NCBI RefSeq assembly: GCF_003113265.1
Contig: NZ_PUIV01000007.1
Span: 1-64,000, forward strand
Source of the DNA: Methylosinus sporium
GTDB lineage: Bacteria; Pseudomonadota; Alphaproteobacteria; Rhizobiales; Beijerinckiaceae
DNA: 64,000 nt
Direction: 5' to 3'
The notes below the pieces were generated by a model. That model saw only the letters and a list, made by a program, of their open reading frames with translations, was not told the origin of the DNA and did not search any database. The number at the start of each line of letters is the position of its first letter. Position 1 is the first letter of the stretch. Both the position numbers and the translations under genes were made by a program. Shown piece after piece: positions 13,041 to 19,103 of this stretch.

Positions 13041-13334
13041 TCAGCGGCCGCCGGGCGAAAACATCATGCGCAAGCGCCCGCGGTGGCCTCGCTCGGCGAA
13101 AGCGCCGGGGCGCTTGACGCTATGTGGGACCTGCTCCTCCGGCGCGAAGGAGAGCGCGGAAGGGGCGCTCCGCACGCGGGCGGCCGGGCCGAAGGAGGCG
13201 AGACAGCGATTATAGGCGTCCGCCGCCTGAATCTGCTCGCAATCGCCGATATTGCGCGGCGCGGCGGCCGCGGCGAGGCAAAAACCGGCGAAGCAGGCAA
13301 TGAAGACGAGCCGAATCATGCGAAGCATCGTCAT
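13041..13334 (-). CDS. Small secreted protein of unknown function
   Basis: The 97-residue product has a signal peptide (about residues 1-26, AAAAA cleavage region). A mature region follows with two cysteines in [20 protein letters not shown], then a basic, Pro/Arg-rich tail. The Cys pair 12 residues apart suggests an intramolecular disulfide in the periplasm. Its ATG overlaps the pheT stop (ATGA at 13331-13334), so it is translated as the last cistron of the pheS-pheT operon. I do not know its function. Confidence 0.62.
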
Positions 13335-15754
13335 CCTCTGAGTTGGGCGCCCGTTTTCTTGCCCGCCTCTGTGACAATTTTGTGGGCGAGCGCCTCGATC
13401 TCCACATCGGTGAGCGTTTTGTCGCGGGGCTGCAGCCGCACGGCGACGCCGACCGATTTCTTGCCCTCCGGCACGCCTTGTCCTTCGTAAATGTCGAAAA
13501 CGCTGACATCGGTGATGAGCGCGCGATCGGCGCCCTGCACGGCGCGAATGAGATCGCCGGCCGGCTGGTCGCGATCCAGCAGAAAGGCGAAATCGCGCGA
13601 GACCGGCTGGAGATCGGAGAGCTCCAATTTCGCCTTGGCTTTGGTGGGCTTGGCCTTGGGCGCCGGAAGCGCGTCGAGAATAATCTCGAAAGCGGCGATC
13701 GGCCCCTCGACGTCGAGCGCCTGCAACACGCGCGGATGCAATTCGCCGAAATGGCCGATGACCGCCTTGGGGCCGAATTGCAGCGTTGCCGAGCGGCCGG
13801 GATGGAGCCAGGAAGGCCCGCCGGCGACGATCTGCAAGCCGCCCGTGGCGACGCCGAGCGTCTGCAGCAGCGCGAGGGCGTCGGCCTTCACATCGAAGAC
13901 GCCGACCGCGCGCTCCTTGCCCGACCAATGGCGGCCAGCGCCGGCCGGCAGAGCGAAGCCGCGGCGCAGGCCCGTGGCGGCGATCTTCTGACCCTTCTCA
14001 TCCTCGCCGAGGAAGATTTGCCCGACCTCGAAAAGCGCGACATCGGGAAAACCGCGCGCGGCGTTGCGGCCGGCGGCCGTCACGAGGCCGGGCAGCAGGC
14101 TCGGCCGCATGTCGGAGAGTTCCGCAGCGATCGGATTGGCGAGGGCGAGGCGATTGTCGTCGCCGCCGCCGAAAGCCTGCGCCTGCTCCTTGGAGACGAA
14201 GGACCAGGTGACGGCCTCGACCAGCCCGCGCGCCGCTAGCGCACGCCGCGCCGCGCGCATGCGCTTCTGCAGCAGAGTGAGAACCGGCTCGGTTACGCCG
14301 GCGTTGCGCGGCAGAGGCGCTGCGGCGATGGTGTCGAAGCCGGCGATGCGGGCGATCTCCTCGACGAGATCGGCCTTGCCTTCAATGTCCGGGCGCCAGC
14401 TGGGGACGTCCACCAGCGCGTCCTCGCCCGCCGCTTCGACAGTGAAGCCGAGGCGCGTGAGTATGGCGGTCGACTCGTCTTTCGAGACGTCGAGGCCGGT
14501 GAGGCGCTTCGTCTCGCTCCAGGGGAAGCGCAGCTGGCGCGTCGCCGTTTCCGCCGAGCCGCAAATGGCGACGTCCGAAGCCTCGCCGCCGCAGAATTCC
14601 AGCACCAGTTTCGTCGCCAGCTCGAGGCCGGGCAGCGCAAAGGCCGGATCGACGCCGCGCTCGAAACGATAGCGGGCGTCGGTGGAGACGCCCAGCTTGC
14701 GGCCCGTATGGGCGATATTGGCCGGATCCCACAGCGCGGTTTCGATCAGCACATCCGTCGTGTCGTCGGAGCAGCCGGAATGCTCGCCGCCCATGACGCC
14801 GGCGAGAGATTCGGGGCCTTTGTCATCGGCGATGACGACCATGTCGGCGTCGAGCTTATAGGTCTTGCCGTCGAGCGCGAGCAGCTCCTCGCCGGCGCGG
14901 GCGCGACGCACCACGAGATCGCCGGCCACTTTCTTCGCATCGAAGACATGCAGCGGTCGCGCGCGGTCGAAGGTCAGATAATTGGTGATATCGACGAGCG
15001 AATTGATCGGGCGCAGGCCGATGGCGCGCAGGCGATCCTGCAGCCAGGCCGGGCTCGGGCCATTCTTCACGCCGCGCACCAGACGCAGAGCGAAGAGCGG
15101 CGCGAGATGCTTGTCGTCTTCGGTGAAATCGAGCGTGACGCGCTGCGGCATGGCGAAGCCGCCTTTGATCGTCTCGACAGCCGGCGTCTTCAGCGTTCCG
15201 AGCCCCGCGGCGGCGAGATCGCGCGCAATGCCGTAAATGCCGGCGGCGTCGGAGCGGTTGGGCGTCAGATTGATCTCGATGACCGGATCGTCGAGCCCGG
15301 CCCATTGCGCGTAGACCGCGCCGATGGGCGCGTCCTCTGGCAGCTCGATGATGCCGTCGTGATCGTTGGAGAGCTCCAGCTCGGCGGCCGAGCACAGCAT
15401 TCCGAGCGATTCGACCCCGCGAATGACGCCCTTGCCGAGCGTGATCTTCTTGGCCGGAATATAGGTTCCCGGCGCGGAAAAGACGGTCTTCAATCCCGTG
15501 CGGGCGTTGGGCGCGCCGCAGACGACCTGCACCGGCGCGCCTTCGCCCGTATCGACCATGCAGACGCGCAGGCGATCGGCGTTGGGATGGGGCTTGGCGT
15601 CGATCACATGCGCGATGCGGAAATCCTTCAGCTGCGCGGCGGGATCGTGCAAATGCTCGACCTCGAGGCCGATGCGCGTCAGAGTTTCGACGACCTCCTC
15701 GAGCGAGGCGCTCGTCTCGAGATGGTCTTTCAGCCAGGAGAGTGTGAGTTTCAT
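13331..15754 (-). CDS. pheT: Phenylalanyl-tRNA synthetase beta subunit
   Basis: The 807-residue subunit of the alpha2-beta2 synthetase that charges tRNA-Phe. It has the N-terminal EMAP-like tRNA-binding domain (about 40-150, with [19 protein letters not shown]), the B3/B4 editing domain, the B5 domain, and the C-terminal ferredoxin-fold anticodon-binding domain starting near residue 710 ([23 protein letters not shown]). Length is normal and no frameshift is seen. The ATG overlaps the stop of the preceding small gene (15751-15754) and its own stop overlaps the next start. Confidence 0.97.
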
Positions 15755-16374
15755 GCGAGGACGTTCCGGAAGTCTTCGTGCTTTTTGGGCTGCGCGGCGC
15801 TGATGCGCAAGGCGCGATGGAGGACGTTGGCGTAACCGAGCGCGTCATCGATCGCCCGATGCGTATGCTCATGACCGCCGAGCCAGTCGCCGGGGAAGGA
15901 GAGGTTATGCGTCTGCGCATAGCTCCAGCCGAAGAGGCCGATGAGCAGGCTTCCGATATCGACGCCCGGGCCATGGAACAGCCGCCGCCCTTCCCAAGGC
16001 GCGGAGAACAAGCGCGCGCCGGCGAAGCTGCGCAGATATTCGTCCATCCATACGCCGTCGAGCATCAGCGGACGCGAGGCGAAGACGCGGACGCCGCCAA
16101 AGCTCTCGACCCAATCGGCGAAGGCGGTCATCGCTTCTTCCGGTGCGCGCGGATCGCGCGTCGACGCTGCATAGGCGAGCGGCTGCGTCGCCCACCAGGC
16201 GGAGGTCTGCGGATCGGGCGAAGCGCCGATGAGCTGATCGGCGCAAAGCTTCGCCAGCGTGTGAAACACGGCGTAATAGGCTGTCGCGACGGCTCGCCGC
16301 AGCGACGCTTGCTTCGGACGACCGGCCTCGCGTCCGGCGAGCTCATCGGCAAGGCCCAGGAGATCGTCGATCAC
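15751..16374 (-). CDS. Chimeric protein: HEPN-like N-terminus joined to a DEDD-type 3'-5' exonuclease tail
   Basis: The first 50 or so of 207 residues ([16 protein letters not shown], then [20 protein letters not shown] and a Cys-Ala-Asp end) match what I know of a small alphaproteobacterial HEPN-like family. From about residue 52 the sequence changes: [33 protein letters not shown] and [20 protein letters not shown] are the middle and end of a DEDDh exonuclease, with the Exo II Asp and the H-x4-D of Exo III. The Exo I D-x-E motif and the second half of the HEPN domain are both missing. An in-frame deletion between two adjacent genes would explain this. It overlaps both neighbours by ATGA. 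Nuclease activity is doubtful without Exo I. Confidence 0.6.
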
Positions 16375-16694
16375 GAATGACTCCGCTCAGCGCGCGGCGG
16401 ACTTTCGCGCGAAACTTCGTCCTCGGGCAGTTCTTCTCCGAGCCGCCTCATGCGAAAGTAAGGAAACCTTTCTTCTCCTTCGGCGAGGAGCGCGCGGCCG
16501 AGCGCGGCATGTGCGTCGAAAAAGGTCGTCGGCTCGAGCGGCGGAGCGCCGGCGCCGAGAACCGCGTCCACATAAACCGCGGGCTCGTCGCTGTGATCGA
16601 ATCCAGAGCGCACTTCGGCCCGCTGATAGCCGAACTTGCCGAGTTCCCTCCGCAATACGCGATCTACGACGATCTGAATGTCCGCGTTGTTCAT
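16371..16694 (-). CDS. Small hypothetical protein, partner of the HEPN-like gene
   Basis: The 107-residue protein starts MNNADIQIVVDRVLRRELGKFGYQ and continues with a conserved-looking D-x-A-V-Y-V-D-A-V-L-G-A-G-A-P-P segment and FFDAHAALGRALLAEGEERFPYF. In my recollection this kind of protein is encoded directly before HEPN-like genes in alphaproteobacteria, so the two may form a functional pair; a toxin-antitoxin role is only a hypothesis. No catalytic motif is visible. Its stop overlaps the next start (ATGA, 16371-16374) and it begins 21 bases after the pheS stop. Confidence 0.65.
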   Translation of the reverse strand: MNNADIQIVVDRVLRRELGKFGYQRAEVRSGFDHSDEPAVYVDAVLGAGAPPLEPTTFFDAHAALGRALLAEGEERFPYFRMRRLGEELPEDEVSRESPPRAERSHS

Positions 16695-16715
16695 TGCGTC
16701 ACCCCGAGAAAGGCT

Positions 16716-17798
16716 TCACCCGCTCAAGCCCCCCGCTAGCGTCGGGAAATCCAGCGGCCTGAATCCATAATGCGTCAGCCAGCGCGCATCGGCCTCGAAG
16801 AAGGCGCGGAGATCCGACATGCCGTATTTCAGCATGGCGAGACGATCTATGCCGACGCCGAAGGCGAAGCCCTGATATTTGTCCGGATCGAGCCCGCAAT
16901 TGCGCAGCACATTGGGATGCACCATGCCGCAGCCCAAAATCTCCATCCAATCCTCGCCCTCGCCGAAGCGAATGTCGCCGTCCTTGCGGCGGCATTGCAC
17001 ATCCACTTCCGCGGAAGGCTCAGTGAAGGGGAAGAAGGAGGGGCGAAAGCGCATCTTCACCGACTTCACCTCGAAGAATGCCTTCAGAAACTCCTCCAGC
17101 ACCCATTTCAAATGGCCCATATGGGTCGTCTCGTCGATGACGAGCCCCTCGACCTGATGGAACATGGGCGTATGCGTCTGATCGCTGTCGCAGCGATAGG
17201 TGCGGCCGGGGCAGATCACGCGGATCGGCGGCGCCTTGCTCAGCATGGTGCGCACCTGCACTGGGCTCGTATGCGTGCGCAGCAGCTTGCGCTTGCCGTC
17301 GGCGCCCGGCGGGAAGAAGAAAGTGTCGTGCATCTCCCGCGCCGGATGCCCCTCGGGGAAATTCAGCTTGGTGAAGTTGTAATCGTCGCTTTCAATGTCC
17401 GGCCCTTCGGCGACGGAGAAGCCCATATCGGCGAAGATCGCCGTCAGCTCGTCCATCACTTGCGAGATCGGATGAATGCGGCCGAGCTCCTGGCCGCTCT
17501 CCTGCACCGGCAGCGTCACATCGACAGTCTCGGCGGAAAGGCGCTTCTCCAGCGCCTCGGCCTGCAGGACGTCGCGACGCGCGGCGACCGCCTCTTGCGC
17601 CTTGTCCTTCAGCGCGTTGATCTTGGCGCCTTCGGTCTTGCGGTCCTCGGGCGACATTTTGCCGAGCGTCGCCAGCAGCGCCGAAATGCTTCCCTTCTTG
17701 CCCAGCGCGCCGACGCGCACGGCCTCGAGCGCGGCCTCGTCGGCCGCCGCCGCGATCGCCGCCAGAGTCTCGGTCTCCAGTTCCGCTATATCCGTCAT
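16716..17798 (-). CDS. pheS: Phenylalanyl-tRNA synthetase alpha subunit
   Basis: The 360-residue catalytic subunit. It has the N-terminal coiled-coil (about residues 1-90, with [12 protein letters not shown] and [11 protein letters not shown]), class II motif 2 ([15 protein letters not shown] region, about 205-225) and motif 3 ([22 protein letters not shown], about 315-336). The Phe-specific [17 protein letters not shown] block is intact. Length is normal. It is the first cistron of an operon that ends with pheT but carries two small genes in between, an unusual arrangement because pheS and pheT normally abut. Confidence 0.97.
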
Positions 17799-17960
17799 CG
17801 TCCCGCCACGGCTTTTGATTTTCTGGGGCGGGTTGTGCCACGCTCGGCAGGCGATGTCGAGAACGCGGGCGGGGCGCCGTCCCCCGCCGCTCTATCCCTC
17901 AGAGTCGAGTTCGCATGTTCTTTTTACGAAAACCGCTTCGCACTTTTCGGGAGCGTGCCC

Positions 17961-19103
17961 CTAGATTTTCCAGCGCAGCGCCATGCCGGCTTGCCAATTT
18001 TTGGAGAGCTGCGGCCCCTCGAGGCTCTGATACACGGGAATGCCCGCCTCCAGCGCGATGGTGAGCGCTTCCTGGCCGATGAGGCCGCCGCCGATCGTCG
18101 CGCCGCCCCACAGCTCCACGCGCTGGCCGCCGTAGAAATTGGGATTGGCCGCCTGCGCCTTGCCGCGGATCATCGGATCGAGCCCGCGAATCTCGCCCTG
18201 CGTCGTGGCGTTGACGCGGAAGGTGGTGGTGAGGCCCTTTATCCAGCTATAGCCGGCCCAGCCGTTGAACTCGTGCAGATCGCCATAGAGATAGCCCTCG
18301 GGATTGGCGGCCAGCGGAAAGCGGCCGCGATAGGACAGACCCCAGGACCATTTGTCGATATGGCCGGCGTAGACGATTCCGGGCATGACGTCGAAAGTGC
18401 CGGCGCCGGGCTGCAAGGCGTAGAAGGCGCGGCTCGTCGCATAGCTTCCGTCTGGCAGCAGCAGACGGAATGTGTTGTGGGTGCTTCCGGTCGGGAAGCT
18501 CATGCCCAGATTGAGCTGAATGCGATGTATCGGGTCCTGATAGACGCGATAGATCGTCGAGGCGGTGAAATCGGTGAGGCCGTCGGTTCCCGTATGGCTG
18601 AGCCCGAGTCGGTTGAGACTCGTCGGCCCTTGGAATGTCAGCATGTCGAGATTGCGCTCGATCATGCCGCCGGTGACGACGACGGACCAGTCCTTGGTGA
18701 TTCCATAGGCGAGCGCCAGCGTCTGCGAGGCGACGGAGACATTCTGCGGCACGAGCCTGAGCTTCGATGTCGGATGGCCGAACCAGGGCGTCGTCGCGAC
18801 CACCTCTTCCGACGAGAGCCGCCGCGTTCCTTTCAACGTATGCGAGAGATTGGCGAATTGCGGGATGATGGAGACGACGAGCTTGCCGGCGGGCGGCATA
18901 TCGGCGCCGAAGACGCCGAGCGGCGCCGGCGGCAGGGGCGCAGGGGCGGCGACATCGGGCGCAGGCGCGGCGACGAGCTTGGCTGGCGCGTCCGCGCCTG
19001 CCGCCTCTCCGACGCAGACGCCGAGCAGAGCGGCGGCGATGGCCAAAGTCTTCGCGCTCACGAGGATCGGGCGCGGCGGAGCGCTTCGTTTCATTCTCAT
19101 CAT
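17961..19103 (-). CDS. Outer membrane channel-like protein (MetA-pathway/phenol-type transporter family)
   Basis: The protein (380 residues from ATG 19103) has a signal peptide (about residues 10-34, cleavage near EAAGA-DA), a Pro/Ala-rich linker (about 40-62), then alternating strands typical of a 12- to 14-stranded barrel: FGHPTSKLRLVPQNVSVASQTLALAYGIT-like hairpins and FPTGSTHNTF, ending with a strand terminating RWKI. This resembles the outer membrane transporter family linked to phenol meta-pathway genes. The substrate is unknown. A TTG start 17 codons upstream is possible. It stands alone between pheS and ackA. Confidence 0.65.
   Translation of the reverse strand: MMRMKRSAPPRPILVSAKTLAIAAALLGVCVGEAAGADAPAKLVAAPAPDVAAPAPLPPAPLGVFGADMPPAGKLVVSIIPQFANLSHTLKGTRRLSSEEVVATTPWFGHPTSKLRLVPQNVSVASQTLALAYGITKDWSVVVTGGMIERNLDMLTFQGPTSLNRLGLSHTGTDGLTDFTASTIYRVYQDPIHRIQLNLGMSFPTGSTHNTFRLLLPDGSYATSRAFYALQPGAGTFDVMPGIVYAGHIDKWSWGLSYRGRFPLAANPEGYLYGDLHEFNGWAGYSWIKGLTTTFRVNATTQGEIRGLDPMIRGKAQAANPNFYGGQRVELWGGATIGGGLIGQEALTIALEAGIPVYQSLEGPQLSKNWQAGMALRWKI

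Follow-up and report, generated by a model that had tools for sequence, protein, structure and literature searches.

The window, by which we mean the whole 64,000-nucleotide stretch of Methylosinus sporium DNA analyzed here, carries on its minus strand, in this order, pheS, a gene for a 107-residue protein, a chimeric ORF, and pheT (Table 1). The source genome (G000) encodes one member of the methane/ammonia monooxygenase A family (PF02461, 2e-108) and therefore probably belongs to a methanotroph. A recount of ORFs reproduced the boundaries, strand, and 207-residue length that a preliminary description had assigned to the chimeric ORF. The coupling by ATGA which it had proposed at both ends holds at pheT, but not upstream, where the overlap with the 107-residue gene reads GTGA. 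A scan of positions 15600-18000 returned no promoter-like site and a single terminator-like site, located inside pheS, with 1.7 expected by chance.

Table 1. Features of the pheS-pheT region in the window.
Feature	Position	Strand	Basis
pheT; start ATG overlapping the chimera stop (ATGA)	13331..15754	-	Named by position after pheS and conservation in relatives
Chimeric ORF, 207 aa, GTG start, TGA stop	15751..16374	-	ORF call and parent alignments
3' three quarters of a predicted Rv2179c-like DEDDh exonuclease gene (residues 53-207 of 207)	15754..16221	-	Includes the common TCG codon 52
Junction TCG, present in both parents; 3-bp microhomology, codon 52	16219..16221	-	DNA alignment
Codons 1-52, 5' third of a HEPN-like gene (intact form 152 aa)	16219..16374	-	Amino-acid and DNA identity
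Imperfect inverted repeat of 22 nt, self-complementary at 20 positions	16223..16244	.	1 base from the junction TCG
107-aa gene, partner lying upstream of the HEPN-like gene; its stop overlaps the chimera start (GTGA)	16371..16694	-	Identity to relatives, 15-sequence alignment
pheS	16716..17798	-	Pfam tRNA-synt_2d, 1e-99

As had been anticipated for related genomes, the two sources of the ORF occur as separate full-length genes in the same slot of congeners. In G005 and G008, the 107-residue gene, whose product is 97% identical to that of the window in both, is followed by an intact HEPN-like gene of 152 codons; residues 1-52 of the chimera share 94% (G005) and 96% (G008) amino-acid identity with its start, rising to 96% and 98% if GTG starts are counted alike. 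The slot of a third congener, G002, holds a DUF4160 gene, a DUF2442 gene, and an intact exonuclease gene of 207 codons, whose residues 53-207 align with residues 53-207 of the chimera at 88% amino-acid identity. The earlier division of the ORF into roughly 50 HEPN-like residues and a DEDDh exonuclease remainder is thus upheld. DNA identity of the HEPN-like part runs at 94-95% and stops at the junction, where the match to the exonuclease parent starts; codon 52 is TCG in both parental frames, and the two DNA matches join there. These alignments confirm the ORF as a real and precise chimera. The inverted repeat beside the junction also occurs in G005 and G008, within their intact HEPN-like genes, and the window contains ten 22-mers that are as self-complementary. 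The chimera and the intact exonuclease are equal in length, with 52 residues gained and 52 lost, which we take as a coincidence. Assignment of the N-terminal part to the exonuclease family was considered and rejected: the N-terminus of the G002 exonuclease differs and bears the motif discussed below, and the 52 residues match a separate intact gene. A match of 76% over residues 11-206 obtained with the chimera as query includes a stretch that is not homologous and is aided by a chance D-E..G pattern. The candidacy of another gene of G000 as a second copy of the exonuclease was likewise dismissed, the best other match to PF16473 scoring 11.6 bits (E 0.34, searched at E <= 10).

Such a join could in principle come from assembly or strain mixing, with a contig joined across two alleles, and the genome is indeed a draft of 55 contigs. 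Nevertheless, we regard an artefact as a very slim prospect: the parents have no more than 3 bp in common at the junction, and assembler overlaps or k-mers are far longer than that. Moreover, contamination of the genome is given as 0.05, the join is in frame, and both flanks match the G005/G008 lineage.

By its profile matches, the 207-residue parent is a predicted Rv2179c-like DEDDh exonuclease, as the G002 protein reaches the PF16473 cut-off of 27 (27.0 bits) and a relative, L044, scores 28.4 bits. In a sequence search of solved structures it retrieved 7t2s (E 0.092), and the PADLOC model termed 'Effector, Exonuclease', which we infer to stand for Cap18, detects it at 7.8e-11. The same model recovers the chimera at 1e-4 over residues 72-189. 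The affinities of the 152-residue parent are less clear-cut: it scores 14.3 bits against PF05168 (HEPN; cut-off 22), with a relative, L012, just passing at 22.3 bits, which weakly points to a HEPN-like protein. The structure-sequence search returned no match for it at E <= 1. Searches of NCBIfam gave nothing above cut-off. The invariant positions of its family (23 aligned rows) include Y33, Y34, A35, F37, R63, H67, R101, D105, and Y106. Like the HEPN member of MNT-HEPN pairs in the HEPN superfamily (surveyed in PMC3710099), the gene stands second in a two-gene unit; it departs from that superfamily in that the protein falls under the family cut-off, its R63 and H67 form an R-x3-H rather than an Rx4-6H motif, and the 107-residue partner has no Pfam match, hence no MNT domain was found in it.

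The 107-residue and HEPN-like genes together form a two-gene unit without a family name between pheS and pheT (window 16371-16694; L030:4930-5705), arranged in the order of an antitoxin and its toxin. Of the 32 genomes with the HEPN-like gene, 22 also gave a match to the partner (E 1e-3; among the matches listed, and counting the truncated copy of the window). On mobile elements, Rv2179c/Cap18-like exonucleases are frequent in viral contigs, where 270 stretches fit the pattern and 188 were confirmed; among 80 of the 188 (L181-L260), many of the contigs exceed 100 kb. The corresponding search of viral contigs with the HEPN-like gene yielded six stretches that fit the pattern, none of which was confirmed. 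Among plasmids, the HEPN-like gene recovered 28 records, 26 of them from Rhizobium, all distant relatives below 60% identity, and the chimera recovered eight, the best being 38% identical over residues 20-185 (Paenarthrobacter).

Alignment with the parents bears out the earlier report that the chimera lacks both the Exo I D-x-E motif and the second half of the HEPN domain. The Exo I segment (VTDVELDGP in G002) is replaced by HEPN-like residues, whereas 18 of 19 aligned exonucleases carry the D and E of this motif, L039 being the exception. The chimera retains D106, H172, and D177, which are invariant in a 43-row alignment and which we take to be the Exo II aspartate and the Exo III histidine and aspartate. 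It scores 22.7 bits against PF16473, below the 27-bit cut-off. On the HEPN-like side, two thirds of the protein are gone (52 of 152 residues are left), including R63, H67, R101, D105, and Y106, and no Pfam HEPN match to the chimera appeared at E <= 1. When the chimera is aligned with 42 viral relatives, three residues of its HEPN-like part (D10, E11, and G14) land on the Exo I columns. We take this correspondence to be probably due to chance because the spacing is D-E rather than D-x-E, residues 2-15 are modelled as a helix, and the stretch around D10 and E11 varies among the HEPN-like relatives in their alignment; there is a residual chance that these residues stand in for the lost acids.

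Structure prediction, which the preliminary description had suggested as a way to judge the completeness of the exonuclease core, points the same way. An intact viral relative was modelled with a mean pLDDT of 93 and strands at residues 2-9, 19-27, 33-41, and 93-96, three of the four thus lying within residues 2-41, the part replaced in the chimera. The chimera model has a mean pLDDT of 72.7 and only two short strands (98-100 and 137-139); its residues 1-50 lie at about 45-54, a low confidence that is expected there from an alignment without HEPN relatives at the N-terminus, and blocks of ten residues in the back part reach 65-90 up to residue 200. In fold searches of the PDB, which compare different proteins modelled from separate alignments, the viral relative gave 141 matches at E <= 0.001, led by 7t2s (the CBASS protein Cap18; 5e-11) and then RNase T, and the chimera gave none, its best match being again 7t2s (E 0.014, TM 0.49/0.57). 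Sequence and models agree in predicting that the RNase H-like sheet of the chimera is incomplete and the nuclease core broken, and nuclease activity is therefore unlikely. The chimera further departs from the Rv2179c and Cap18 proteins in its setting between pheS and pheT, with pheS, the 107-residue gene, and pheT as neighbors.

To place the chimera among its relatives, it was queried in 60 related genomes and 397 genomes of the order, and each parent in 397 genomes of the family, the genome sets being overlapping; the 99 loci obtained are the best matches of each search, with 30 as the upper limit per search, rather than a random sample, and four of them gave no hit on recount. No second chimera was seen among the matches listed from any of these searches; exonuclease matches in the order search that start before residue 50, such as those of G741 and G451, align to the intact exonuclease from residue 6. 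The idea of a functional nuclease regulated by its HEPN part, entertained in the preliminary description, finds no positive support, given this single occurrence and the missing Exo I motif and leading strands. Between pheS and pheT, the matches listed place the HEPN-like gene in 32 genomes and the exonuclease in 16, and the two sets, together 47 distinct genomes, share only G000. Within the genus, the pheT start was found in nine of ten genomes (G007, which is 86% complete, gave none), and the nine slots hold the HEPN-like gene in seven cases, the exonuclease in one, and the chimera in one. Hence, the HEPN-like gene and the exonuclease are alternatives in the pheS-pheT slot. The HEPN-like gene of G003 is frameshifted, its profile positions 1-81 lying in one frame and 88-152 in another (L034:4605-5200), so decay within the slot seems to be tolerated.

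These distributions bear on how the join arose. The preliminary description favored a deletion joining two neighboring genes. In its explicit form, whatever the product may do, an ancestor with pheS, the 107-residue gene, the HEPN-like gene, the exonuclease, and pheT would have lost, in one internal step, about 0.3 kb from the HEPN-like gene and 0.16 kb from that of the exonuclease, together with anything between them. The 3-bp repeat beside a hairpin at the junction fits such an event, short repeats next to hairpins being usual end points of deletions. Synonymous divergence from G002 is also compatible with it, being 0.318 for the exonuclease part and 0.306 for pheT, as expected if the exonuclease had long been in the lineage. 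Against it, both genes were found intact together in the slot in none of the 47 genomes with either gene there, among the matches listed, and in none of the 49 spacers measured in the survey of relatives described below; G067 and G122, which match both parental queries, carry the two genes on different contigs. As no four-gene genome was seen, we lean to recombination between alleles of the slot, which explains the data at least as well, and regard the deletion as a possibility with somewhat less than an even chance.

In a tree of pheS and pheT, G000 clusters at support 1.0 with G005, G008, and G001, three genomes that have the HEPN-like allele, and this allele is thus likely to be the older state in the lineage of G000. 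G002 falls outside this group; the tree of pheT places it beside G004, which that of pheS does not. Since the exonuclease part and pheT are about equally far from G002 at synonymous sites, either the donor was a genome other than G002 or the exonuclease allele has long been resident in the species. We looked for pheT as a mosaic from a G002-like donor and rejected it, as its first 150 bp match G005 at 100% identity and G002 at 95%; given no such mosaic, the crossover would have fallen right at the start of pheT, unless the donor lies outside the sampled genomes.

Taking these observations together, we posit, with a probability of roughly three in four, that the ORF is an accidental chimera, its product most likely being a dead enzyme, and we favor allele exchange with an illegitimate join as the route. 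The ancestral slot would have held the 107-residue and HEPN-like genes, and the incoming DNA would have carried the other allele, namely the exonuclease followed by pheT. The pheT end would have been joined by homology, and the other end by an illegitimate join at the 3-bp match beside the hairpin. Homology-facilitated illegitimate recombination (PMC3240628), with one homologous and one non-homologous end, would give this arrangement; here, such an event is read from the sequence rather than seen in a known donor-recipient pair.

An in-frame join would also carry ribosomes to the ATGA overlap with pheT, and selection may have removed joins in the other frames. As pheT is essential and reading would end early, such joins may not survive: moving the join by one base or by two would make translation end 374 or 151 nucleotides ahead of the pheT start. 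In the six gene pairs examined in PMC10666635, coupling was nearly abolished by gaps of about 20 nucleotides. Coupling to pheT may thus account for the frame being open even if the product serves no use. What counts against this step is that an overlap between the stop and pheT is not required everywhere: among HEPN-like alleles, the pheT start overlaps in G006, but follows the stop by 16 nucleotides in G005 and G008 and by six in G001 and G004, and is evidently used without overlap in these four contexts. As a protein, the chimera probably does nothing. Its significance would rather be that of a fossil of accessory-gene exchange inside an essential operon, caught at base resolution, which also suggests why the join is in frame.

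The contrary view, in which the chimera is a new protein favored by selection, for instance a pseudo-exonuclease that binds nucleic acid or the 107-residue partner and serves as a regulator, can draw on several observations. Apart from the intact frame, the retained Exo II and III residues, the placement of D10, E11, and G14, the better-modelled back part, and the PADLOC match, dN/dS against G002 is 0.185 for the exonuclease part, next to 0.167 for pheT. The exonuclease part thus displays no measurable decay, which would argue for function if the chimera were old. Over both branches, 19 amino-acid differences separate it from G002, against a rough neutral expectation since the split of about 53 replacements on the window branch alone; hence, in this one genome, the chimera is either young or constrained. 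Nine of the 19 differences could be polarised with G334, seven falling on the window branch and two on that of G002 (two-sided p 0.18), which gives no sign of extra constraint. Together with its presence in a single genome among those searched, the loss of Exo I and three strands, and the ability of pheT coupling to account for the open frame, this leads us to consider a selected protein unlikely. A more specific proposal, that the chimera is a nuclease-dead or rewired nucleic-acid binder which regulates the 107-residue partner or the synthesis of phenylalanyl-tRNA synthetase, is less likely still; were it true, the binder would have inherited its expression signals, and perhaps the 107-residue partner, from the HEPN-like unit.

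Beyond the chimera itself, the variability of the slot emerges as the more interesting by-product of the analysis. In an unselected survey, the first 200 residues of pheT were compared with 60 relatives, 59 of which matched; 58 stretches were read (G051 was left out), 57 showed a pheT start, and 49 had pheS close enough for spacer length to be measured from its last aligned residue. The 49 spacers comprise 21 of 2-134 bp, 12 with the HEPN-like gene, three with the exonuclease, that of the window, and 12 with other content (380-1219 bp), extra content being present in 28 (window 15755-16715; relatives L123-L179). In five of the 12, a scan against families identified the content: a TIR-domain protein of the CAP12/Pycsar type (G026), a Phd/ParE pair (G023), DUF559 (G045), DUF6173 (G047), and a cytochrome c' (G046). 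The pheS-pheT spacer takes up varied small accessory genes in this order and may serve as a minor hot spot for those of toxin-antitoxin or defence type. Among the matches listed, narrow word searches of the open-access literature gave no account of a variable pheS-pheT slot, no match joining pheS, pheT, exonuclease, and HEPN, and none for 'between pheS and pheT' with both names, which weakly points to a slot undescribed so far. In the spacer of G334, the exonuclease is followed by an ORF of 316 codons (L044:2133-3083), and the spacer of G011 is filled by one of 306 codons (L135) that, by eye, resembles it.
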